Positions 3,872-22,588 of a stretch of 22,588 nucleotides of DNA are shown in pieces. Position 1 is the stretch's first letter. Each line of letters opens with the position of its first letter. This stretch comes from a virus: IMG/VR virus record IMGVR_UViG_3300018041_000968, positions 1 through 22,588 of that record, one strand, 5' to 3'. The notes beneath the pieces were generated by a model. It did not search any database. It was not told the origin of the DNA and saw only the letters and a list, made by a program, of their open reading frames with translations. Position numbers and translations under genes: made by a program.

Positions 3872-3877
3872 CACCTC
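3872..3877 (-). promoter_or_regulatory. Ribosome binding site choosing the SSB-like start
   Basis: GAGGTG on the minus strand, with GAGG 5 bases before the ATG at 3868. It overlaps the TGA stop of the DnaE C-terminal gene, suggesting translational coupling, and favours ATG 3868 over the GTG at 3874. Confidence 0.65.
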
Positions 3878-5435
3878 AAATTTGTATTACTTTATTTACG
3901 ATTACTGAACCCTTATCTTTTTTGGAGGGTTCACACATTAGCATCACAGTATTTCCTTCAAGCAAGAAACTTTTATTCTTTTCATAAGTTTCTGGAAAAA
4001 CTGTAATAGAGTCAAGTTCTCCACTACTATCTTCAACACACATGAAAGCCATTTCTTGTCCCGGAGTCTTGCCCTTTTTCGTTCTGATAACACGAATTGA
4101 TGTTATCACGACCGCTAGATTGACTTTCTTTTTTATGATACCGTTAGCTACGTCGTTACAAAAATCTGTAGCTATTTGCGTATCATCAACTTTACTGCAA
4201 GTCAAAGCACAGCCCATAAACTTTGTTTCTTGATCTGCTATACTAGAAGCGTGATCGTCTAAATTATAGAATGGTTTGACCAATGACTGCATGATGTTTT
4301 CTACGCTTTCAATTCTTCTAGAATTAATTTTAGTGTTAGACATCATTACTTTTATCGCTTCAGGCAGGGTTCTCACTCGCAACGAAGGATCTTTTTGGTT
4401 GTCTACAATAGAGCTTTGCTCTCTAGCCGATAATTGTTTCCAACTATCAAATTCGTAAAGCATCTTCTGTCGGGTCTCTGTATTATTCTTTCCATTAAAA
4501 GCTCCTACAGAAATCAATGCGATTACTGCTCTTTTGTTTAGTTTTAGTTTATGAATAATATTGATAAGACAGTCTAACCAATTATATTCAGAAACATCGC
4601 CTAGTTCTTCTATCTTCTCGCACTCTTTTTGACCAACACCTTTAATGTGGCGCAAGCCAAAATATATTTGTCTCTTTGGTTCATCTATTTGAAAATTTGT
4701 GTAGAGCCTATTAAGTCTTGGTGGATATGTTTCTATACCTACAGACTTAGCATCCATAACAAGCTGCTTGATCTCAATCTCTGATTTAGGCTTTCTGTCA
4801 GATCTGTTGAGGGAGCTTTGGTAGAATCTCAAAATTCTATGAGTCTTACAGTAAGCGGACCAATAAGCATTAATCGCGTAAGCAACAGCATGTGACTTAT
4901 TGAAGGCGTATCTACTAGACTTTTCAATCCAAGAAAAAATTTCCTCTGCCGCCTTTTGACTTACGGTGCCCTGCTTTTTAGCCCCATCTACAAACTTCTG
5001 CTTGATCTCTTCCATTAGGTCGGCCTTCTTTTTACCGATAGCCTTTCTAAGATCGTCCGCTTCTTTAAGATTAAAGCCAGCAAGTCTTTGTGCAATCATC
5101 ATAGATTGCTCTTGATAAACCAATACCCCATAAGTTTCTTTAAGAATAGGCTCTAAAGATTCATGCAAATATTCTACAGGATAATCTGGATTACCTGCTT
5201 TTCTATATGCATAAATTTGAGTCATGCTCTTTTTGGTTTTCTCATCTTGTGCTTTGAGCGTTCCCGGTCTAATAAGAGATATTGTAGCAGCAAGTTCGCT
5301 AATGTTTCTTGGCTGAACTTCTTTAGCCCAATGCTTGCCAAGACTAGATTCAAGCTGAAACACGCCCTTTGTACGACCTTCGCAAATCAAATCCCAAACT
5401 TCTTCATCTTCAAAATTATTAATATCAAACGTCAT
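3876..5435 (-). CDS. dnaE: DNA polymerase III alpha subunit, C-terminal half (fingers to OB fold)
   Basis: 519 residues matching the second half of bacterial DnaE. It begins just before the conserved GVFQLES (24-30) and continues with TYGVLVYQEQ (101-110), RKAIGKKK (130-137), FNKSHAVAYA (178-187), a helix-hairpin-helix GLRHIKGVGQKECEKI (about 260-275) and a terminal OB-fold region (about 437-519). It supplies the fingers, which bind the incoming nucleotide, and the downstream DNA-binding parts. It has none of the three catalytic aspartates, which are all in the other gene at 6672-8285. The tau-binding domain that ends E. coli DnaE is absent, and I see no obvious clamp-binding motif. ATG 5435 shares ATGA with the stop of the HNH gene, with GAGA as ribosome binding site. 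The protein must work together with the N-terminal half. Confidence 0.93.
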   Translation of the reverse strand: MTFDINNFEDEEVWDLICEGRTKGVFQLESSLGKHWAKEVQPRNISELAATISLIRPGTLKAQDEKTKKSMTQIYAYRKAGNPDYPVEYLHESLEPILKETYGVLVYQEQSMMIAQRLAGFNLKEADDLRKAIGKKKADLMEEIKQKFVDGAKKQGTVSQKAAEEIFSWIEKSSRYAFNKSHAVAYAINAYWSAYCKTHRILRFYQSSLNRSDRKPKSEIEIKQLVMDAKSVGIETYPPRLNRLYTNFQIDEPKRQIYFGLRHIKGVGQKECEKIEELGDVSEYNWLDCLINIIHKLKLNKRAVIALISVGAFNGKNNTETRQKMLYEFDSWKQLSAREQSSIVDNQKDPSLRVRTLPEAIKVMMSNTKINSRRIESVENIMQSLVKPFYNLDDHASSIADQETKFMGCALTCSKVDDTQIATDFCNDVANGIIKKKVNLAVVITSIRVIRTKKGKTPGQEMAFMCVEDSSGELDSITVFPETYEKNKSFLLEGNTVMLMCEPSKKDKGSVIVNKVIQI

Positions 5436-5776
5436 TTTTGTCTCAAATAGTTAATTGCCTTTTGTAATACTTCAATATCATCATCAAATCTACCTAAAGC
5501 GCTGTTGCAGTTATTGCAAAGATAACCCCTGAACTCATCTGTTTCATGGTCGTGATCCAGAACCAGTTTTCTGTCAGTCCGCTCACAAATTGCGCAGGTG
5601 CCACATTCTGGCTTATGGTTTACTTTTCTCAACTTGTTTCTAATTTTAGCAAGTTTACTATTACACGCCTTACAGCTATTTTTACGTCCCGCATCTTTTG
5701 TTGAAAAGTGAGGAAAGTCTGTCTCAACCTTAGATTCTCCACATTTTATACATGTCTTATACGTAAGTATTTCCAT
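5432..5776 (-). CDS. Endonuclease VII-like HNH nuclease with extra N-terminal zinc ribbon
   Basis: A 114-residue protein of the recombination endonuclease VII family (T4 gp49-like). The core reads CAIC (C61/C64), LVLDHDHETDEFRGYLCNNCN (D74 H75 D76 H77, C87/C90, N91) and ALGRF, matching the zinc-and-metal-binding fold that cuts branched DNA or specific sites. Upstream is another pair of CxxC motifs (C9/C12 and C35/C38), which the classical protein does not have there. I chose ATG 5776 because AAAAGG lies 9 bases upstream; a TTG at 5794 would add six residues. It overlaps the exonuclease gene by 20 bases and shares ATGA with the DnaE C-terminal gene. It may resolve recombination or packaging branches, or be a homing-type nuclease related to the DnaE split. 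Confidence 0.85.
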   Translation of the reverse strand: MEILTYKTCIKCGESKVETDFPHFSTKDAGRKNSCKACNSKLAKIRNKLRKVNHKPECGTCAICERTDRKLVLDHDHETDEFRGYLCNNCNSALGRFDDDIEVLQKAINYLRQK

Positions 5777-6449
5777 CTGCAAAAGCCTTTTCAAATCTTG
5801 TCTTTTCGATTAATGTTCTTTGAAACTTCATAAACTTAATCATAATATTTGCGGTATCTTTTACATCTTGCAGAGCGTCATGAGCGTTATCTTTACTGGC
5901 TTGACTCATGCCAAAGTAATCACGCATGTAATCCATACCATAGCCTTTTACATCTTGATTATTCTCAAACCAACAATAGATATGCTGCATTACATCAATA
6001 GTAAAAATAGGATTAAAAATCCCCTGTCTTCCACGCTTAGAATCTACAGGGCCATATTGTTGACACATGCGCTCGACAATAGGCATATCATAACCATTGA
6101 TATTATAACCAGCAGCGATTGGAGCATAGTAGCTAGTCTTTTTGAAGTTATATTTATCACAAAATTGAGCAAACTTATTCCAGACGGTTTTAGGTAGTGG
6201 AGCTTTTGCTAGCGCGTCTCTCGTTTTTCTAGTAACCTTTAACGCCTCATCTTCTAACGGATCAACTCCAGCCTTAATAGCTTCTTCATCATCAATGATT
6301 GGTCTAATTTCACTGTTAAAAATGCCGCCCGGCTGAAGTTCGAGCTTTCTAGCATGAATTGCCACAGCAGCGATTTGGGTCGGTTGACACCTGTATGGGT
6401 CTCTGCCGCCGGTCTCAAAGTCGAAAACAATAATATCCCTATAATTCAT
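5757..6449 (-). CDS. DnaQ-like DEDDh 3'-5' exonuclease, probable proofreading subunit
   Basis: 230 residues with all DEDDh exonuclease motifs: Exo I FDFETGG (D10, E12), Exo II GYNINGYDMPIVE (D121) and Exo III NAHDALQDVKDT (H190, D195). Such enzymes remove mismatched 3' ends. In bacteria the epsilon subunit DnaQ binds the PHP domain of DnaE, and here the gene lies between the two DnaE halves. The PHP domain of this DnaE appears to have lost metal ligands, which makes proofreading in trans plausible. An alternative is a DexA-like phage exonuclease that degrades DNA. It starts 1 base after the preceding 74-residue gene, with GAG near the ATG as a modest ribosome binding site. Confidence 0.87.
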   Translation of the reverse strand: MNYRDIIVFDFETGGRDPYRCQPTQIAAVAIHARKLELQPGGIFNSEIRPIIDDEEAIKAGVDPLEDEALKVTRKTRDALAKAPLPKTVWNKFAQFCDKYNFKKTSYYAPIAAGYNINGYDMPIVERMCQQYGPVDSKRGRQGIFNPIFTIDVMQHIYCWFENNQDVKGYGMDYMRDYFGMSQASKDNAHDALQDVKDTANIMIKFMKFQRTLIEKTRFEKAFADGNTYV

Positions 6450-6450
6450 G

Positions 6451-6675
6451 TTATACTCTACCCTTTTTATTTTTTAGTTCAATAAATTTATTTACAGCAT
6501 CATCTATATTTTTAAATAAGTGATATTCGTTTTGTCTATCTGACCATACCTGATACTCGTTAGATCTAACGACTCTTCTGTAATAATTAGATAGATTACA
6601 AATAGAGACATCCATATATTCTATAGAGCATCCAGAAAATATTACCGATTTATACTCTTCTTTAGTTGCGTTCAT
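6451..6675 (-). CDS. Small protein of unknown function between DnaE-N and exonuclease
   Basis: A 74-residue protein I do not recognise. It is hydrophilic with several aromatic residues (YYRRVVRSNEYQVWSDR) and a probable helix at the end (NIDDAVNKFIELKNKKG); no cysteine clusters, signal peptide or membrane segment are seen. The start is ATG 6675, which shares ATGA with the stop of the DnaE N-terminal gene and has a perfect GGAGG 7 bases upstream. Its constant neighbours, a polymerase half and a proofreading exonuclease, make a small polymerase accessory subunit (comparable in position only to theta) a reasonable guess, but nothing in the sequence proves it. Confidence 0.75.
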   Translation of the reverse strand: MNATKEEYKSVIFSGCSIEYMDVSICNLSNYYRRVVRSNEYQVWSDRQNEYHLFKNIDDAVNKFIELKNKKGRV

Positions 6676-8285
6676 TCGCAAACCTCCATAATTTTACTTA
6701 ATAGGTCAATGCCCAAGATATCGAATTTAACATGCCCCTGAGATTCTAGGGCGACCATTTCAAACTGAACAATCTTCTTACCGCTTTTATCTGTGACCAT
6801 TGGGCAAATATCTTTCAGTTTGTGTTTTGAAATAATGACTCCTGCCGGATGCTTACCTTGGGACTTGTTTGTTCCCTCGATTTTGATCGCCTGCTCGAAT
6901 AGGTCAGACATAGGTCCAGATAATTTATCATCGTCGTCTAGATAGCACCATTTCTTCAGCTTGCTTGACTCATTGATTAGCGCCCATCTGATAATTGACC
7001 TATCTTCTTTATCCATCAGCTCAAGCTGGTCAGAAATTTGAGCTTCGTCAGGAATACAATCTGTAATCTCATTCATTTCGGAAAATGACACACTATCATT
7101 AATTCTCATTACTTCTTTTAGGGCGGATCTACCCTGAAGTCTACCATATGTTACCATCTGAGAAACATTATCGCTTCCGTATTTTTCTTTGATGTCATCA
7201 ATCACTTCATCTCTATGTTCTGCCGGAACATCAACATCAATATCGGGCAAGGATATATGATCTTCTGTATTTCTACCCTCGTTGTAAAACCTTTCAAAAA
7301 TTAGACCATGCTCAATAGGGTCAACCTCTGTAATTCCAAGCAGATAAGAAACCAGACATCCTGCGGCAGAACCACGTCCCGGACCAGCCAACCATCCACG
7401 CTTTTTAACACTGTTAACGATGTCTTGAACAATTAAGAAATATCCACTAAGTTGAGCCTTGAAGATAACTTCCAGTTCAGTCTTGACTCTTTCTAGATAT
7501 TCATTTTTATCTGCCTCAGTAGCAACCTTTTTCGCTGGTACAAGTTTAGATTTCCATCCATCTCTACATAGCTGCTTCAAGTACTCGTCTTCACTAAAAC
7601 CTTCTGGACACTCAAATGTTGGAAGCATAGGTTTACCCGTGACTTCATAATCTTCACACATATCACAAATCTTTTGTACAAGATCATGCTCTTTTTTAGA
7701 CTTTGTAGTTTGAGGAATGTGATAAGAAGAAGAAATAAAGTAATGTTTGTTTTCAAATTCTTCTTCCTTTGAAATTTTAGACATAATTTTTGGTAATGTT
7801 GTCTTCATTCCTGAGCACAATACTACACGATGGGCTTCTGCTTCGTCTTTAGACACATAAAGAACTTCTCGTTTTTTGTAATCGTATTTAAAAATAGAAG
7901 ACTTGTTTTTTACAATCTTATCCCAAGCCTTTGATATTGTATCACAGTTGGTAACGCATATAAGGTTTCCGCTTTTAGCGACAGTTAAAACATCAATAAT
8001 GTTGACAGACTCTTCGACGATTCCCACTATCTGCATTAACTCTATCCATCCCTGTTTATTTTTTGCAAACAAACAAAAATCTCCGTAATCGCATCCAATG
8101 ACTGGCTTAACGCCGTTTTGGACACATGCTGAGTGGAATTCGATAGCTCCAGATACGGTTTTATAATCAGCGATTCCGCAGGCTGGTATTTTTAGATGCG
8201 CGCATTTGGCGGCAAGTTTTTCTGGTTTACAAAAAGCTTTCAAAAGACTATAGTGAGTCTTGCAATTTAGCGGTATTAAATTCAT
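6672..8285 (-). CDS. dnaE: DNA polymerase III alpha subunit, N-terminal half (PHP and palm)
   Basis: 537 residues matching the first half of bacterial DnaE. A PHP-like domain comes first (about 1-200), but its first motif reads KTHYSLLKA where active PHP domains have HxHxxYSxxDG, so metal binding is probably lost. The palm follows: GPGRGSAAG (301-309), LPDIDVDVP with catalytic D350 and D352, GKHPAGVIIS, and KFDILG with the third catalytic D522. The protein ends 15 residues after D522, and the fingers are encoded by 3876-5435. The joined halves total about 1056 residues, close to a DnaE without its tau-binding tail, and almost nothing is missing at the break. I see no intein sequence. ATG 8285 was chosen over TTG 8288; its ribosome binding site is weak and it overlaps the GT47 gene by 38 bases. 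Confidence 0.94.
   Translation of the reverse strand: MNLIPLNCKTHYSLLKAFCKPEKLAAKCAHLKIPACGIADYKTVSGAIEFHSACVQNGVKPVIGCDYGDFCLFAKNKQGWIELMQIVGIVEESVNIIDVLTVAKSGNLICVTNCDTISKAWDKIVKNKSSIFKYDYKKREVLYVSKDEAEAHRVVLCSGMKTTLPKIMSKISKEEEFENKHYFISSSYHIPQTTKSKKEHDLVQKICDMCEDYEVTGKPMLPTFECPEGFSEDEYLKQLCRDGWKSKLVPAKKVATEADKNEYLERVKTELEVIFKAQLSGYFLIVQDIVNSVKKRGWLAGPGRGSAAGCLVSYLLGITEVDPIEHGLIFERFYNEGRNTEDHISLPDIDVDVPAEHRDEVIDDIKEKYGSDNVSQMVTYGRLQGRSALKEVMRINDSVSFSEMNEITDCIPDEAQISDQLELMDKEDRSIIRWALINESSKLKKWCYLDDDDKLSGPMSDLFEQAIKIEGTNKSQGKHPAGVIISKHKLKDICPMVTDKSGKKIVQFEMVALESQGHVKFDILGIDLLSKIMEVCE
6683..6687 (-). promoter_or_regulatory. GGAGG ribosome binding site inside the end of DnaE-N
   Basis: A perfect GGAGG lies in the last codons of the DnaE N-terminal gene, 7 bases before ATG 6675. 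It selects that start over an in-frame TTG at 6681 and couples translation of the 74-residue protein to the polymerase half. Confidence 0.8.
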
Positions 8286-9108
8286 CAATTTTAGACTTCA
8301 AAATTAGTGACAAATGTTTAGGGTCCAATACTGTCATATTATATCTTGCTAGAGACATAAATACAGCTTTATTCTTAGGATTATGTAAAAAATTTAACGT
8401 CTGGTTGATAGTATGATCTAAAAATTCCCATCTACCAGTAAAAAATGGAGCGTTCAAGTAGTACCAAAACTTAGGTAGCCTTTCTAACACCGGGAAGCAT
8501 CCCATTTTTAGCGCCTCAAAAAACCGGAAAGTCTCCTCGCTAGTCGCTCCAGTTGGGCAAAGACACAGCTTTGAGTTAGATAACAACTCAAGATACTCTT
8601 TACCTTTTAACCCTCTGGCGAATCCGTCCGTATAAACTACTTTATATTTAAAGCTATGTCCAGAACTTTCTAGAAATTTGTCTAAACACTTCTTGAATTT
8701 ATCTCTGGTTCCGGTGTGTGGTATTTGCCCAATGAAAACAAAATCATATTCTCTTTCTAGAATCGTTTTTATATTTATTGATTCGTCATCATCTAAAAAT
8801 GTACCAATAGGCATCGGAAAAACTTTAGGACTTTCTACAGGATGGCCCCACATATCTAGTTCTGCATAATTGTGAAAAACGTAATGCACCCTTGGATCAT
8901 GAAGGTCTTCTGGCGGCAAATGAACTTCTCTAGATAGTGAAAAAATGATATTTTTCTTATCGTCGTTAGGAATATCGAGTGGTCCCAAGTCGTACTTAAC
9001 AACCACTCTGTATGAGTCGTCTAGCATGTCGGCCAAACATTTTGCTACATCTATAGAAAATCTGTTACCTTTATCAAAGTCTAATTTTAAGTCTATTAAT
9101 TCACACAT
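8248..9108 (-). CDS. Exostosin-type (GT47-like) glycosyltransferase
   Basis: 286 residues with the C-terminal signature of the exostosin family: LCLCPTGATSEETFRFFEAL (181-200) followed by KMGCFPVL. In known members this region, containing S/D..RF.EAL..GC.PV, binds the nucleotide sugar. The first half is less conserved, with IPHTGTRDKF (about 129-138) at the domain junction. There is no membrane anchor, so it should act in the cytoplasm. It is unrelated in family to the three GT4 genes at the left end, although all four belong to the same transcription unit. It starts 1 base after the GIY-YIG gene, with a weak ribosome binding site. The substrate is unknown. Confidence 0.82.
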   Translation of the reverse strand: MCELIDLKLDFDKGNRFSIDVAKCLADMLDDSYRVVVKYDLGPLDIPNDDKKNIIFSLSREVHLPPEDLHDPRVHYVFHNYAELDMWGHPVESPKVFPMPIGTFLDDDESINIKTILEREYDFVFIGQIPHTGTRDKFKKCLDKFLESSGHSFKYKVVYTDGFARGLKGKEYLELLSNSKLCLCPTGATSEETFRFFEALKMGCFPVLERLPKFWYYLNAPFFTGRWEFLDHTINQTLNFLHNPKNKAVFMSLARYNMTVLDPKHLSLILKSKIDEFNTAKLQDSL

Positions 9109-9109
9109 C

Positions 9110-9943
9110 TCAATTTTCTACAATATGTTTTAGGTCTTGAATAATTTCATTATTTAAAGCAGGTTCATAGGCAAAAATATAAAACGCTTCATACTGGTGC
9201 AGCTTCGACTTAGGAAACTCTATCCAAGAGACTAAATCTTTTGATTTAATTTTATGATGTTTATACATTCTTACTTTAAGGTTGTTAGCCTTGCCAACAT
9301 ATAAAATCTCTGCCCCGTCCCAGCAAAAATAAACGGCTGGAATGTCCAGATCATCGTCTTTAGATATTTCTGAACATGTTTTTTCTGGCGCGGGAGGATT
9401 AGGCATGTTATGTTTTTGACAAATCTTTTTTTGGCTTTCTAGCTTCAATAGCTCTATCATTTTTCTTTCAACATACATCTCTTCTTGGATTTGGGCAAGA
9501 GCGTCTTCTTTATATTTTATTATATTAGAATCAATAGAATCTAATATCTTATCTAAGGCTCCCACTAAATCTTTTCCAACCTCATACACCTTTTCTATTT
9601 GACTAAAATCGTGATAACTAATATTGGTTTTAGGTGATACTGCTCTTTTTGCATCGGCGGCAGTAGCATTGGTGGATCTAATCAGTCTCGCCATATTAGA
9701 CATCTGTGAAACCACTTTATTCACTTCTTCTGCCGACATAATGTGGTGATCAGAATACTGGGGATTCACATATTTCCAGCTAGGTGCATTTTTTTCTAAA
9801 AAGTTGTATACGGCGTCTGGATCTCGATTCATTTCAGCGGCCATATTTATTGGTGTTTTTATATGAGCGTTCTCAAGTATGAACGCTCTTTCACCTCTAG
9901 ATAGTCTTCCCTGCTTCTTGGTTTCGTTTCTATTATTATTCAT
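9110..9943 (-). CDS. Helix-turn-helix / GIY-YIG nuclease fusion protein
   Basis: 277 residues. The N-terminus (about 10-50) is a predicted helix-turn-helix of the pattern GxLSxxExxFxxENxxxxT. A long, probably helical linker follows (about 70-175). The C-terminus is a GIY-YIG nuclease: VYF (204-206), ILYVGKANNL (213-222), the catalytic-type R225, H229/H230, E252 in YEAFYI and the ALNN ending (262-265). These are the residues used by UvrC, homing enzymes and Slx1-type nucleases. It could be a homing endonuclease with its own DNA-recognition domain or a branch-specific repair nuclease. The N-terminal domain aligns without gaps with the protein at 17492-17833. Its ATG lies 1 base after an upstream stop-sharing junction, and its end abuts the GT47 gene. 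Confidence 0.83.
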   Translation of the reverse strand: MNNNRNETKKQGRLSRGERAFILENAHIKTPINMAAEMNRDPDAVYNFLEKNAPSWKYVNPQYSDHHIMSAEEVNKVVSQMSNMARLIRSTNATAADAKRAVSPKTNISYHDFSQIEKVYEVGKDLVGALDKILDSIDSNIIKYKEDALAQIQEEMYVERKMIELLKLESQKKICQKHNMPNPPAPEKTCSEISKDDDLDIPAVYFCWDGAEILYVGKANNLKVRMYKHHKIKSKDLVSWIEFPKSKLHQYEAFYIFAYEPALNNEIIQDLKHIVEN

Positions 9944-10962
9944 CCCGGCGCCTCATAATATCCTATATTGAATCCATCTTTAGTACATTCCTTTACGGCT
10001 TCCTTATATCCTATTGTATGAATTTTATTTTCTACATATTCACACATGGTAGTATTAGTTCCCGGCCAATTATTTTTATAAAAATGGCAAAGTCTTTGAC
10101 ATCTAAAATCTAATCTTTTTTCAGATATTGGCTTGGGTTTTATATTTGCCTTGATCTCCTCAAACCTTTTTCTTAACATCTCCAAGAAAGATTCTTGATC
10201 AGCAGAATCAAAGCACATGCTAAAAGGTCCACCATCTCTAGTGAAAAATATTGACATGATAGCCTGTTCGTAGTTTGGATAAAGTTTTGATATTGCATAA
10301 TTATATAAAAGTAGTTGAGGGTCTTTTTGTAATTTGTTATAGTCTTTTACTTCGCCTGTTGCCCAATTTTTTCTTTGTCCTGTTTTCCAGTCAATGACTT
10401 CAATAATGTCGTCTGCAACGCTCGTAACTAAGTCAATAGTTCCCTTGATTGCAAGTCTGCCATTAATAATTTCACCATTAGGCATTTCGTATTGATATTT
10501 TGCCCAATCTTGTTCGATTGGTATATCAAATGTTGGCTCTGTGTCTACAATAGTTCTGTTTCTAGGATCAAACTGTCCATCATTAAAAGTTATCGCCGTT
10601 TCTACCTGATCTTGACAAAATCTAAAATCGGCAGGATAATATTTGTGATTGTCCATAGATGTATAGTGTTCGTAACTACGATCAAGCAGATCTTTTACAA
10701 ACTTTTTAGTGTAGAGTTTTTTGGGCGTAAACTCCACTTCGCCTATCGCGTCATCAACGATTATTAGTTTTTTATCATCTGGCTTCTGCTGCAACTCTTT
10801 TTTGCAGGCAGCTAAACACTCCATAACCTTGTGGCAGGCGGTGCCTTGTTGGGCCTTTTTCCCTGAATCAGACCTGTGTCCTAAAACATAAGTCATAAAG
10901 TATTGCATTTGGCAAAACTCATAGTTGCCATAGCTGGAAGATCTTATATATGTTACTATCAT
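9940..10962 (-). CDS. RecB/Cas4-like PD-(D/E)XK nuclease, possible iron-sulfur protein
   Basis: 340 residues of the PDDEXK_1 type. Visible motifs: the N-terminal helix RSSSYGNYEFCQMQYF, GTACHKVMECL with H44, GTIDLV with D177, VIDWKTG with D191 and K193, and the QxxxY motif Q216-LLL-Y220. This is the catalytic set of RecB-family nucleases, which cut single strands with two metal ions. Four cysteines (C17, and C288, C292, C307 near the end) bracket the domain in the way seen in Cas4 and AddB, where they hold a 4Fe-4S cluster; the spacing here is not the classical one. It shares ATGA with the GIY-YIG gene and follows the kinase gene by 1 base. It probably trims DNA ends for recombination or replication. 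Confidence 0.87.
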   Translation of the reverse strand: MIVTYIRSSSYGNYEFCQMQYFMTYVLGHRSDSGKKAQQGTACHKVMECLAACKKELQQKPDDKKLIIVDDAIGEVEFTPKKLYTKKFVKDLLDRSYEHYTSMDNHKYYPADFRFCQDQVETAITFNDGQFDPRNRTIVDTEPTFDIPIEQDWAKYQYEMPNGEIINGRLAIKGTIDLVTSVADDIIEVIDWKTGQRKNWATGEVKDYNKLQKDPQLLLYNYAISKLYPNYEQAIMSIFFTRDGGPFSMCFDSADQESFLEMLRKRFEEIKANIKPKPISEKRLDFRCQRLCHFYKNNWPGTNTTMCEYVENKIHTIGYKEAVKECTKDGFNIGYYEAPG

Positions 10963-15124: not shown

Positions 15125-15494
15125 CTGCGTCCTCGTTGTAATTAAATTCTACAAGTCTTATTTCATTAATTTTGCACCACTCAGACTTATTTCTATCTCT
15201 GGCCTTGGCTTTAAAAAATGCAAGCTTGTCTCGATAATGGAAAGCATTAAATTTAAAATGCTGTTCGCCGTGAACCTCTACTATTAATAATCTATTCGGT
15301 ACGTAGAAATCTGCACGTAGACATTGATTCTTTAACGTCCTAGTTCCGGGAAGTGAAACCTCCTCCAGAATTGTATCATGTGGAAAGCAAAGGTCAAGCA
15401 CATCTCTAGCCTTTTGATGTAGCTTAGACCTTTTACCTCCGCCTTCTTTAGGGGTCCAACCGTATTCTAAACCGTCTAATCCTATAATCTTCAA
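15099..15494 (-). CDS. Small PD-(D/E)XK nuclease (Vsr/DUF559-like fold), TTG start
   Basis: About 131 residues. The core LRADFYVPNRLLIVEVHGEQ (D62, E73, H75, E77 from this start) matches the DFY...VE.DG..H motif of Vsr and DUF559-type endonucleases, followed by DRNKSEWCKINEIRLVEFNY, again typical (RD..K..WL...GI.VLR). It probably nicks or cuts DNA, in repair or as a mobile or selfish nuclease. The reading frame has no ATG, so it must use TTG (or another rare start). TTG 15494 forms a TTGA overlap with the RecA-like stop and has AGAGG 7 bases upstream; TTG 15497 is the only nearby alternative. Confidence 0.8.
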   Translation of the reverse strand: MKIIGLDGLEYGWTPKEGGGKRSKLHQKARDVLDLCFPHDTILEEVSLPGTRTLKNQCLRADFYVPNRLLIVEVHGEQHFKFNAFHYRDKLAFFKAKARDRNKSEWCKINEIRLVEFNYNEDADEWRRKIK

Positions 15495-16576
15495 CAAAGA
15501 GCCTCTTTTATTAGTCTCTGTAGGGTTGTAATAATCTCAGGATTATCTTTGATAAAATTGTACAACTTGTCCTGACCCTGAAATTTAAAAGCTTTTATAA
15601 TTGCTTCATCATTATCAGTATCAAGATCAGGCTTGATTTTTTTAGCTAATTCTTTCTCTATCTGAAAAAACGGACACGAGAACCAAGATGCGGACTTGTC
15701 TATGAATCCTAAGTCGGTTGCAAGCTCAAGGACTTCTTGCACGCTATCAATACCGTGACCATACCTGATGTAGCTTTGAACCTGTCCTCCGGGCGGCCCC
15801 ATAGAAGAACAAATAATCTTCCAGTTAACGACTTGACCAATTCTATTTTTGGCACTGTCTTCCCAAGCTTTAACGGCTGAAACCTTTTCTCCTCCAGCGA
15901 TTTCCATTCTAGTATCTGCTTGATATTGAATCTTGGTTCCTCCATCAGACAATTTTGCTTTTCCATATCCTGCCGTATTAGCAATATAATGAGTGATAGC
16001 TATTACTAATCCCCTTTGTCTTGGTAGAAGCTGTCCTATCTTCTTTGTGAAGATGGACAAAATTTTTGGAAGTCCAGCCCGTCCGGGGGTAAAGTCTCCA
16101 TCTAGTTCTTTTTGTGGAATAAGCGAAGAAATAGAGTCGATAATAAGTACCGCCCCATGATATTCTGGATCGCTCATAAGTTTATAAGCCATATCTAAAA
16201 GATCTTCTGCTGGTAGTGGTTTATCTTCTGGCCCAATAACCTCAATCTTTTCTGGATCAAAGTCTTCGACTTGAAAGTTCATGTCTTTCAAGCGTCCCTC
16301 TGCGTCCAAATAAATAATCGGCCTCCCCTCCTTTTGGCAATTTGAAGCAATCTGCATTGCTGTAGTCGTCTTTCCGCTCTTGGGGTCTCCGGTGAGTGTA
16401 AGCCAGCACCCCTCTCTGATACCACCGCCAAGAGCTATATCAATTGCGGGACTGATCGAGATAACCTTATAATCGCTTTTCTCTTTTAAGACCTCTGTGC
16501 CAGTTTTAATGATATTGCCGTACTTCTTGATGTGAGAATCAAGATATTCACGACCCTTCTTTTTTGTCTTTGCCAT
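15491..16576 (-). CDS. RecA/UvsX-like recombinase
   Basis: 361 residues with the RecA ATPase core: Walker A GDPKSGKT (63-70), YLDAEG (89-94) with the catalytic-type Glu, Walker B AVLIIDS (142-148), and a loop region THYIANTAGYGKAKLSDGG (195-213) followed by IQYQADTRMEI, in the position of RecA's DNA-binding L2 loop. It should form filaments on single-stranded DNA and drive strand exchange, in repair and recombination-dependent replication. The C-terminal part (from about 285) is divergent from bacterial RecA, as usual in phage. AAGGA precedes ATG 16576. It overlaps the preceding gene by 29 bases and is stop/start coupled to the small nuclease. Confidence 0.9.
   Translation of the reverse strand: MAKTKKKGREYLDSHIKKYGNIIKTGTEVLKEKSDYKVISISPAIDIALGGGIREGCWLTLTGDPKSGKTTTAMQIASNCQKEGRPIIYLDAEGRLKDMNFQVEDFDPEKIEVIGPEDKPLPAEDLLDMAYKLMSDPEYHGAVLIIDSISSLIPQKELDGDFTPGRAGLPKILSIFTKKIGQLLPRQRGLVIAITHYIANTAGYGKAKLSDGGTKIQYQADTRMEIAGGEKVSAVKAWEDSAKNRIGQVVNWKIICSSMGPPGGQVQSYIRYGHGIDSVQEVLELATDLGFIDKSASWFSCPFFQIEKELAKKIKPDLDTDNDEAIIKAFKFQGQDKLYNFIKDNPEIITTLQRLIKEALC
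15502..15506 (-). promoter_or_regulatory. Ribosome binding site supporting a TTG start
   Basis: AGAGG lies 7 bases before TTG 15494, inside the last codons of the RecA-like gene. Together with the TTGA stop/start overlap, it supports TTG initiation of a frame that has no ATG. Confidence 0.7.
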
Positions 16577-17036
16577 CTATATTCCTTAATTTTGAAAATA
16601 GAGTATTATTCTTCTTCTTTTGTTTCTTAGGTTTAAACACAAGCGGGCCTTTCTCTTCTACTTGCTTGATCTTTTCTGGCTGCTTTTGTAAATCTTCAAA
16701 ACATTTTTTCACACCCTCTTCGACAAAATCGAGCGGTAGAACAAACTTTTTAGATTTATGCAGAAACCCAAGTGAGTAGATATTCTTGCCGTTTGTTTTT
16801 AAGTATCGTAACAACGACTTCTCATCATATCTTTTAATGAGAAGATTGGCAACCCTAATATTGGTTTGGTACTGTTCTTTTTGAGATTTATTCCAAAACT
16901 TAAACTCAAGGCTGCCCTTATTTTCTCTTTCTCTTTTTCTAAGACATACAAGCTCTGCACAATATTGTGCAGCGTTACACGGTTGCCCCGTTGATAAACT
17001 CTTGTATTTTTGGATGCTTGATTTTTTCTGATTCAT
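16548..17036 (-). CDS. Unknown basic protein upstream of the RecA-like gene
   Basis: 162 residues, not recognised. Near the N-terminus is a distinctive stretch GQPCNAAQYCAELVCLRKRE (17-36), followed by FKFWNKSQKEQYQTNIRVAN, which looks like a compact helical domain. The C-terminus is strongly basic (KPKKQKKKNN), suggesting contact with nucleic acid. ATG 17036 has no clear ribosome binding site and lies 62 bases inside the preceding gene; the protein has no other methionine, so translation is probably coupled. It overlaps the RecA-like gene by 29 bases. Confidence 0.72.
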   Translation of the reverse strand: MNQKKSSIQKYKSLSTGQPCNAAQYCAELVCLRKRERENKGSLEFKFWNKSQKEQYQTNIRVANLLIKRYDEKSLLRYLKTNGKNIYSLGFLHKSKKFVLPLDFVEEGVKKCFEDLQKQPEKIKQVEEKGPLVFKPKKQKKKNNTLFSKLRNIDGKDKKEGS

Positions 17037-17490
17037 TTTTGAAAATCATGTATTCTACGTTTTGTTTTGTAACAGATCTTTTCTGATGAAACTCTTCAAA
17101 TTCATTGATCGGCCAAGTGTATTTCTTAACATCTATAGCAGAACAATCTTCATTTAGTAGACCTACGGTTAATGTTTGGTATGATTGCGTATGATCCCCA
17201 GCCATAGACTGTTCTTTTCCAACGCCTCTCATGACCATTATTCCATCCAGACCGTTTTCATCTTCAAAAAAAACAAGCTTTGGAGTACCAAGCATGTGGA
17301 GTTCAATCTTTCTGATGTTTGCTTTATTTTCCTTGCAATGCTTTCTTAGGCGATTCCAAGGATTGTCGTGATCGGGTCTCTCATAATCTCCGTAGACAAC
17401 AGTTCCATCAGTTAAAGTGATGATCCAGCTTATAGACAAGTCCTGCCTAATAAGCTTCTTCATATATTGATCTCTTTGTGTACAGATCAT
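16975..17490 (-). CDS. Protein of unknown function
   Basis: 171 residues, not recognised. It looks like a mixed alpha/beta soluble protein with ISWIITLTDGTVVYGDY (20-36) and KLVFFEDENGLDGIMVMRGVG (71-91), the second part with a beta-hairpin look; no cysteine clusters or membrane segments. ATG 17490 is backed by AGAGGA 5 bases upstream. A second ATG at 17463 has a weaker AGAGA. It follows the helix-turn-helix gene by 1 base. Confidence 0.72.
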   Translation of the reverse strand: MICTQRDQYMKKLIRQDLSISWIITLTDGTVVYGDYERPDHDNPWNRLRKHCKENKANIRKIELHMLGTPKLVFFEDENGLDGIMVMRGVGKEQSMAGDHTQSYQTLTVGLLNEDCSAIDVKKYTWPINEFEEFHQKRSVTKQNVEYMIFKNESEKIKHPKIQEFINGATV

Positions 17491-17491
17491 A

Positions 17492-17833
17492 TTAATCCTC
17501 TTTAATTGTGTGAATAATATTCCTATATCGTTTTGGTGGTCTAGGCTTAGACTTAGACTCGTCTCCTCTTGCGGAAGCCGCCTCTGTCATGATTGTTGCT
17601 CCACGCTCTTTGTTTCTTGCGAACATTTTTCCAGCACCAGAACTAGGCGCTGTTGAAGCAGGCTCGGTTTCAGTAACAGGTTCTTCTGACCTTTTAAAAC
17701 TTAGACCGGAGACATATTTTTGCACGATACTTTTAGATCTATCCATTTTGGCGCACAACTCTTTAACGGTCATGTCGAGATAGTTTTCTTGTACGAACTC
17801 TTTTTCTTTATTGGAAAGTGGACCCTTCTTCAT
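17492..17833 (-). CDS. Small helix-turn-helix protein
   Basis: 113 residues. The first 43 form a predicted helix-turn-helix (GPLSNKEKEFVQEN, then TVKELCAKMDRSKSIVQKYV), with the look of a sigma-like or resolvase-like DNA-recognition module. The rest is probably disordered and includes a peptide KMFARNKERGATIMTEAASA (69-88) and a basic proline-containing tail (KPRPPKRYRN). It has no nuclease domain but shares its N-terminal module with the GIY-YIG fusion at 9110-9943. It might be a transcription regulator or a DNA-binding accessory. GGAGA lies 5 bases before ATG 17833. Confidence 0.75.
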   Translation of the reverse strand: MKKGPLSNKEKEFVQENYLDMTVKELCAKMDRSKSIVQKYVSGLSFKRSEEPVTETEPASTAPSSGAGKMFARNKERGATIMTEAASARGDESKSKPRPPKRYRNIIHTIKED

Positions 17834-21745: not shown

Positions 21746-22588
21746 TTATATGTCACACTTACCGCCAGCACAGGCGACTTGTTGAACAGGGTTTACATTA
21801 TTAGTTTCTTCGATGACGTTTGTAAAGTCTACATCTTGGTATTCTCTATTAAGATCAACCCACTCTTTCCAGTTGTACACATCCTTCATGCAGTATGTCA
21901 ACTGTTTTAGGTCTCCACCGAAGTATTTTTCCGCAAATCTTTCACAGCGCTCTTTCCATTCTTTCTTTCCGTTACCTTTGATCTTCTCGCCAAACCCAAG
22001 TAGACTGTCACACGCCGCCCAAAGGTTGTCCTCCCACAGAGTAAGTGCGACTTCGATAAGTCCGCTCACAAAGATAGAAGCATCGCCGTAGTGCGCGACT
22101 TGTTCGCTTGGTAGATAGACTGTAGTAAAGGGCGCTTGTGGGAAATCTTTATCACCAGAGATAGGAAGTAATGAAATACCACAAAAATATTTTCTATTCT
22201 TATAAATATATTTCTCTACTTCATCCCATTCATCTGGTTTAACATTAATAGTATTACTTACATTATGATTTAACCAAGGTTGAGTACATAATTCTGGATT
22301 TGTACCATTGAGAACCCAGCTTTGTTGTGTAGATTTTACATAGTCCAACAACTGTAGTGCGCTCACTTGGTTTTTAGTTTTGCCGCCGTCCTTAACTTCT
22401 ACACAGAAAGACACAACGTCATCACTATCATTATTACTCCAGACACTTTCTTCACATGCTCTTGGGTTTTGTGTTCTAAAATAATTATAAATGGGTTCCA
22501 TTTTGTTTGCTTGGACTCGGCGGATATATCGTTTCGCATGGTGCGGGTGAATACCACTAGATGTTCCAAGAATACAACTTGATGTTCC
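21746..22588 (-). CDS. nrdJ: Adenosylcobalamin-dependent ribonucleotide reductase (class II), C-terminal part
   Basis: The frame is open at the right edge, so only the last 280 residues are present; the ATG at 22501 is an internal methionine. The edge sequence reads SSGIHPHHAKRYIRRVQ, followed by ESVWSNN, SFCVEVKDGGKTKNQ, WLNHNVSNTINVKPDEWD, GISLLPISGDKDFPQAPFT, LWAACDSLLGFGE and the C-terminal redox tail CAGGKC. These match the monomeric B12-dependent reductase family. The enzyme reduces ribonucleotides to deoxyribonucleotides and needs no oxygen, but needs cobalamin from the host. The C-terminal cysteine pair re-reduces the active site; the catalytic cysteine lies outside the window. It is 9 bases upstream of the dUTPase gene. 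Confidence 0.93.
   Translation of the reverse strand, partial: GTSSCILGTSSGIHPHHAKRYIRRVQANKMEPIYNYFRTQNPRACEESVWSNNDSDDVVSFCVEVKDGGKTKNQVSALQLLDYVKSTQQSWVLNGTNPELCTQPWLNHNVSNTINVKPDEWDEVEKYIYKNRKYFCGISLLPISGDKDFPQAPFTTVYLPSEQVAHYGDASIFVSGLIEVALTLWEDNLWAACDSLLGFGEKIKGNGKKEWKERCERFAEKYFGGDLKQLTYCMKDVYNWKEWVDLNREYQDVDFTNVIEETNNVNPVQQVACAGGKCDI

Follow-up and report, generated by a model that had tools for sequence, protein, structure and literature searches.

A small homeodomain-like helix-turn-helix (HTH) domain occurs in two paralogous copies in one virus of a phage lineage known from metagenomes, once at the start of a 113-aa protein and once in front of a GIY-YIG nuclease; comparison of sequence profiles demonstrates the kinship of the two segments, and AlphaFold2 models agree on their fold. 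We consider it reasonably probable that these segments, together with a third copy found in relatives, represent a lineage-specific HTH family whose members serve as DNA-addressing domains, with effectors of their own and diverged targets. "The window" denotes the whole stretch of DNA analyzed, a virus record of 22,588 bases. The features of the two proteins and of the short gene neighborhood are collected in Table 1.

Table 1. Positions in the window of the two HTH proteins, their domains and the neighbors of the short gene
Feature	Position	Strand	Basis
Short HTH protein, 113 aa, ATG start	17492..17833	-	ORF
Three-helix HTH, residues 1-45 (H8-17, H23-30, H34-45)	17699..17833	-	AlphaFold2
Variable linker, residues 46-69, probably disordered	17627..17698	-	Block pLDDT about 47-68
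Conserved C-terminal block, residues 70-113, possible docking motif	17495..17626	-	Conservation
171-aa gene adjoining the short HTH gene, probable co-translated partner	16975..17490	-	Synteny
RecA-like gene (PF00154), syntenic marker of the short gene	15491..16576	-	Pfam E 1.6e-20
HTH / long helix / GIY-YIG fusion, 277 aa	9110..9943	-	ORF
Paralogous HTH, fusion residues 10-55 (H16-25, H31-38, H42-52)	9779..9916	-	AlphaFold2, hhalign
Long helix, fusion residues 113-177	9413..9607	-	AlphaFold2 model from four sequences
GIY-YIG domain, fusion residues 203-265	9149..9337	-	Pfam PF01541, motifs

Kinship of the two HTH segments

A gap-free match between residues 4-37 of the short protein and residues 12-45 of the fusion had been noticed in a preliminary description of this DNA, and was confirmed by BLASTP, by shuffling and by a profile built without fusions. 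The segment at 17705-17833 (minus strand) comprises codons 1-43 of the 113-aa ORF, in which G4-V37 pairs without gaps with G12-V45 of the 277-aa ORF at an offset of 8; the identities, in short-protein numbering, are K2, G4, L6, S7, E10, F13, E16, N17, T22, A28, M30, R32 and V37. BLASTP of the short protein against the fusion gave 13 identical residues of 40 (E=0.002), and none of 2000 shuffles of the short protein matched the ungapped score of 54, their best being 52. With scores corrected for length, the pair ranked second among the 378 protein pairs of the window, behind the DnaB/RecA-like pair. Some of the identities are poorly kept in the short family: T22 is found in 10 and E16 in 8 of 42 members, and A28 is variable, the common alanine being at position 27.

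Relatives were collected from IMG/VR with the RecA-like and DnaB queries (best 80 of 133 and best 80 of 114), and the profile searches covered 8,600 ORFs from these loci and the window, several of the loci being overlapping pieces of one contig. The short protein family comprises 67 distinct sequences from 102 loci, the window counted in. A fusion-free profile of these 67 proteins retrieved the window fusion with E=2.5e-7 (the same protein is present in L004) and the fusions of L069 and L131 with 7e-6 and 2.4e-5, the next non-member being at 0.22. Since this profile reaches three distinct fusions, the likeness goes beyond chance. The profile-profile comparison of the two N-termini proposed in the preliminary description (hhalign, 42 short proteins against three fusions) resulted in E=5.9e-8 over 47 columns with no gaps, whereas the control comparisons of the short and fusion profiles with sigma-like proteins resulted in 0.37 and 0.44. 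Predicted structures of different fold, named there as an argument against kinship, were not obtained: both AlphaFold2 models contain the same three helices at the offset of 8, including a helix-turn-helix and with no wing, as expected of a homeodomain-like fold.

HTH domains are both short and abundant, the scores of Pfam HTH families are weak here, and any two trihelical HTHs may share a pattern with no specific common ancestry. We regard such a generic likeness as most improbable, because the specific signature G.LS..E..F..N...R extends ungapped over 46-47 columns, the profile E-values range from 1e-7 to 1e-11 while the sigma controls are flat, and D5 of phage T5, the sole other HTH compared, reached 0.014-2.9. 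A tree of 112 HTH segments placed the three fusions together (support 0.895) and the short proteins together (0.742); the third kind did not form one group under midpoint rooting, and two divergent sequences of that kind stood beside the fusions (0.814). The tree is weak because the segment has 46 residues; sequences without the start pattern (5 of the 67 short ones, 3 of the 50 of the third kind) were omitted from it.

Architecture and neighborhood of the short protein

The HTH of the short protein is modeled with pLDDT of about 93 in blocks 11-40. It is followed by a linker whose length differs among relatives and by a C-terminal block with the pattern L[FY]AR..RGVTVMTEAAS..DE...P.RY...IHKIKE. 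In alignment A2, which consists of 42 of the 44 representatives at 80% identity (L064 and L009 omitted), the conservation of this block at least equals that of the HTH: T83, S87, D91, I107, H108 and I110 are invariant in the block, and G4, L6, S7 and R32 in the HTH (42/42 members). The preliminary description had the module reused once alone and once carrying a nuclease; homologous copies with and without a nuclease are indeed present, but the short protein is more than the bare module, since it also has this conserved block. No dimerization domain was recognized in it.

Searched against 50,697 phage records, the short protein had a single match, which was insignificant (E 0.7), and tblastn with the 45-aa C-terminal block from L045 gave none among these records. 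No relative of the short protein turned up in prokaryotes when one genome per species (84,980 species) was scanned with two peptide patterns, which is consistent with the earlier suggestion of a phage-specific module. Single-sequence PDB searches returned nothing significant, and the short family had Tc3 transposase as a weak match in the PDB sequence search (0.0053). The solved neighbors of the short HTH listed by VIA-align are homeodomains, Tc3, paired domains and the HTH of the G20c/P74-26 small terminase, with Z about 5.5 and all under 8, as is typical of common three-helix arrangements; the domain type of the module is ordinary.

A relative of the 171-aa gene is present in the locus of 102 of 102 short genes, with a spacing of 2 nt in 56 of the 100 loci counted (L060, a fusion, and L074, above the length limit, were omitted), and in every one of these 100 loci the RecA-like gene is encoded on the strand of the short gene and at most 2 kb from it. 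Each of the 52 distinct RecA-like sequences preceded by 1,700 nt or more, the window counted in, has the short gene in its locus. In L060 (2077-2835), a single open frame spans the short HTH gene and the gene after it, through either a natural fusion or an assembly or sequencing error.

The short protein is probably a transcription regulator. Fixed in the replication/recombination cluster, it would bind phage DNA via its HTH, and its conserved C-terminal block would dock a partner, which may be RNA polymerase, the phage sigma-like protein or the 171-aa protein; it would thereby act on transcription.

All three copies match phrog_323 (transcriptional regulator, D5-like) with E-values from 4e-6 to 6e-3, including 4.2e-6 for the short protein and 8e-4 for the fusion, and 19 of 42 short members match it at 0.01. 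The short protein and the fusion match 49 and 60 of the 319 columns of this family, and T5 D5 matches columns 3-270. The T5 record annotates D5 as a DNA-binding protein needed for DNA replication as well as late transcription. Its gene adjoins the DnaB-type helicase gene D6, similar to the location of the short gene in a replication/recombination cluster; unlike the short protein, D5 has 255 aa and lacks the MTEAAS block. Direct kinship with T5 D5 was rejected, as our own profiles matched it with E of 0.014-2.9 (297 sequences, 35-kb T5 stretch). The weak profile match to D5 places the link at the superfamily level, and is a lead rather than membership. According to a preprint (PMC13405049), T5 D5 triggers retron-Kva2 through its HTH fold, and another report (PMC8624392) has a D5 protein among the virion-associated proteins of a T5-like Yersinia phage.

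The GIY-YIG fusion

The fusion model was built on an alignment of four sequences; its HTH has block pLDDT of about 71-83 and its GIY-YIG part pLDDT under 50. The Pfam model PF01541 matches the window fusion with E 0.011 and 16.5 bits, below the curated cut-off of 22.6 bits, and the L131 fusion with 7.6e-6 and 26.6 bits, above the cut-off. The motif residues of the window fusion, assigned by eye, are Y205, Y215, R225, E252 and N264/N265, and the motifs VYF and YVG together with R225, E252 and N264/265 align in the window and L131. Relatives of the fusion are present in L004 (the same protein), L131, L069 (where it ends at the contig end) and L154 (near L131).

The fusion is rare. Among the distinct PD-(D/E)XK nuclease gene sequences (PF12705 in Pfam) with 300 nt or more of downstream DNA, 3 of 43 are followed by the fusion (L154 is outside this set). 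The slot between the PD-(D/E)XK nuclease gene (9940-10962) and the DnaE gene (6672-8288) is variable among relatives, and is occupied elsewhere by a relative of GT47-type glycosyltransferases, by a 159-167 aa protein with the pattern MIEI.IT..MK.RAW or by other genes. In the proposed family, the fusion would function as a GIY-YIG nuclease directed to a site or a structure, with its gene in this variable slot.

With a lower probability, which still deserves some weight, the fusion may be a free-standing mobile (homing-type) endonuclease whose DNA-binding part is the captured phage HTH. Its sporadic occurrence (3/43) in a slot with other genes elsewhere and the preserved GIY-YIG catalytic motifs are in line with such an origin. 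However, all three fusions occupy one and the same position behind the PD-(D/E)XK nuclease gene and are grouped in the tree (support 0.895), both of which are also expected from vertical inheritance with loss, and the family searches detected no homing-associated DNA-binding domain.

Among named phages, seven records match the C-terminal part of the fusion only, within residues 182-267 at most. Three of these were inspected and rejected as fusion relatives: in Vibrio 234P9 the GIY-YIG domain is a separate 119-aa ORF, and in Sinorhizobium NV1.1.1 and Pseudomonas Clover the N-termini differ.

HTH-nuclease fusions, including those of a winged helix with GIY-YIG, are known already (PMC11037411, PMC1564403). 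According to the former, Ahi29725I and Apa233I likewise combine an HTH-superfamily domain with a GIY-YIG nuclease; theirs is a winged helix reading N6-methyladenine in bacterial type IV restriction, whereas the window fusion has a three-helix HTH with no wing in the model and a paralogue in the same phage. The Symbiobacterium protein in the latter, with a LuxR-type HTH before GIY-YIG, has the same N-terminal order, but its HTH is of another type and its host genome bacterial. No description of this fusion or lineage was found among the matches listed from open-licence papers, and the lineage-specific set of three paralogues appears new.

Third paralogue, terminase and sigma-like genes

A search for further copies, recommended in the preliminary description, added none within the window record, which holds two and no more, and revealed a third paralogue upstream of the large terminase gene (TerL) in relatives. 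The short family was searched for in 20 records (the window and 19 relatives): the short gene is present in 18 of them, the fusion in the window and G018, and G011 is without a match. The third copy, a protein of 265-279 aa that combines the same N-terminal HTH with a long part, is found in G001, G002 and G005, which are the 3 of 20 records with a large terminase by Pfam Terminase_6N. The hhalign comparison of the third copy resulted in 5.7e-11 with the short protein and 2.2e-9 with the fusion; the latter alignment covers the HTH and a doubtful short extension, and leaves common ancestry of the middle parts unsupported. As predicted from sequence, the long part is probably a coiled coil; the third-paralogue profile matches coiled-coil PDB chains weakly (best 0.0016). 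No third paralogue was found in named phages.

A separate scan identified 70 third-paralogue loci. In every one of the 44 loci that extend for 6 kb or more past the third paralogue, TerL is encoded downstream on the same strand, at a distance of 544-4,212 nt (median 2,759); with this median, the third copy is usually not adjacent to TerL. A sigma-like gene precedes it in 60 of 65 loci with at least 600 nt before it, and was not found in the other five. Around TerL in G001, PHROG matches include a head maturation protease and a major head protein. Given this context, the third copy is a candidate small terminase (TerS) or a candidate partner of the sigma-like protein, and would act as one or the other within the proposed family.

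The PHROG matches of seven third-paralogue members include no TerS. The HTH of the G20c/P74-26 small terminase (6ejq, 4xvn, 6v1i) superposes on the model of the short protein (6ejq: 1.9 A over 46 residues, Z 5.5); this TerS is outside the PDB sequence matches of the profiles, and its 137-aa chain is about half of the third paralogue. Homology to TerS by way of Bacillus phage Staley and Microcystis phage MaeS, two cultured phages found through TerL, was rejected, since their pre-terminase gene is unrelated (hhalign 0.24 and 0.33). Another MaeS ORF matches the third paralogue weakly along the helical part (E 7.6e-4 among 17 sequences).

The sigma-like proteins of L160 (996-1517), L163 (2395-2910) and L166 (1625-2173) have 171-182 aa. 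Sigma70_r2 is the only one among the Pfam sigma models that matches those of L160 and L166, and that of L163 has no PHROG match at 0.001. In L160 and L166, the sigma-like gene overlaps the start of the HTH and coiled-coil gene.

DNA targets of the copies

The residues shared by the short protein and the fusion are distributed unevenly: 4 of 10 in helix 1, 2 of 8 in helix 2 and 1 of 12 (V37) in the putative recognition helix. They belong mainly to the scaffold, which makes identical targets unlikely; since the putative recognition helices have diverged, separate sites are the most likely targets of the copies. The short family mostly keeps R32, S33, V37, K39 and Y40, and its positions 34, 35, 38 and 42 vary. 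A kept scaffold with a varied helix 3 is therefore found inside this one family too, so that target divergence between the paralogues is no more than likely.

The idea of the preliminary description that the two proteins could compete for the same sites is not supported by these data. Were both proteins to bind the same sites, the short protein would shield them from the nuclease, as protection or as a brake; homologous HTH domains do coexist in one genome, and the sample has the short form throughout but the fusion only sporadically, as expected of a protector. We nevertheless hold such competition to be quite unlikely, because the putative recognition helices have 1 of 12 residues in common, the exposed positions vary inside the short family, and relatives without the fusion keep the short protein. 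In the preferred reading, each copy would be a DNA-addressing domain with its own effector, and the copies would read different sites after divergence of the recognition helix. We infer DNA binding for the family, regulation for the short protein, packaging or sigma partnership for the third copy and cleavage for the fusion.

Candidate promoter elements

Three elements were derived from intergenic k-mers in 27 loci. When two mismatches at most are allowed and one end or both must be intact, the element TGACCTAACGTGTCA is found at 52 distinct sites in 19 of 73 packaging/early-region loci (815 kb, including three contigs twice), compared with 0 after shuffling; the 152 replication-region loci, the window among them (1.64 Mb), contain none, compared with 2 after shuffling. 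Across the 20 records it is found 10 times in 3 records, vs once for the reversed control. A [GT]ATAAT hexamer starts exactly 11 nt past TGACCTAACGTGTCA in 42 of the 52 occurrences, and none is present within 14 nt in the other 10. The near-palindromic TGACCTAACGTGTCA with [GT]ATAAT, seen in L196 (9472-16660), L258, L210, L222 and others, represents a candidate promoter class. The layout of a TGACCTAACGTGTCA box before a putative -10 element is comparable to T4 middle promoters. In a highly speculative scenario, one HTH module would address three machines (regulation, packaging and an optional nuclease), and its short form would activate a lineage-specific class of promoters in which TGACCTAACGTGTCA replaces the -35 box.

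The second element, TTTGTGTATA, occurs 25 times in 12 of the 20 records, vs 5 times for the reversed control. Its shorter form TGTGTATA is a candidate late promoter. Sites of TGTGTATA were listed for five loci; they are located before the sigma gene cluster and after TerL in L195 (5698, 13007, 18382) and L197 (5598, 8701, 10881, 17063), and one site in L123 falls in the helicase-primase region. In addition, repeated CGTAAGTC[CG]TT ... elements with G+C-rich inverted repeats were observed in several copies per locus in L196, L210, L221, L252 and L258.

Late co-activators of the T4 gp33 type bind the RNA polymerase flap and the sliding clamp. The short protein could similarly be a gp33-like or sigma-region-4-like co-activator of the sigma-like protein, its C-terminal block binding RNA polymerase or the clamp. 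This rather unlikely role is compatible with the presence of region 2 alone in the sigma-like proteins of L160 and L166 (Pfam), with a match of one of 42 short members to Sigma70_r4_2 at 6e-4 and with TTTGTGTATA as a possible late promoter. On the other hand, a generic HTH may yield one match in 42, the L163 sigma-like protein lacks a PHROG match at 0.001, and the short gene is located in the replication cluster, the copy beside sigma being the third paralogue.

Other genes of the window

The DNA polymerase III alpha subunit is split over two ORFs (3876-5435 and 6672-8288), with the PHP and NTPase domains in one ORF and the finger and HHH domains in the other according to Pfam. Between the two parts are an endonuclease VII-type ORF (5432-5794), an RNase_T-type exonuclease (5757-6449) and a 76-aa ORF; the gene order in L091 and L094 is DnaE part 1 followed by proteins of 71-72, 230-231 and 523 aa. 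At the end of the window, which stops inside the gene, 21746-22501 encodes the C-terminal part of a 742-aa protein that is whole in L002 (629-2857). This protein is presumably a ribonucleotide reductase; the piece in the window has no Pfam match at 0.001.

Conclusions

Bacterial viruses of a group known only from environmental DNA employ one small HTH in three proteins, probably to direct different jobs on their own DNA. The reconstruction presented here provides a testable DNA-binding family for a phage group with no close relative in the phage collection, where the RecA-like and TerL matches are about 25-28% identical among the matches listed. It also points to the candidate small terminase, the sigma-like factor and the candidate promoter classes of this lineage. 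If the three copies do read different sites, they would represent one HTH scaffold that diversifies in specificity within one genome.
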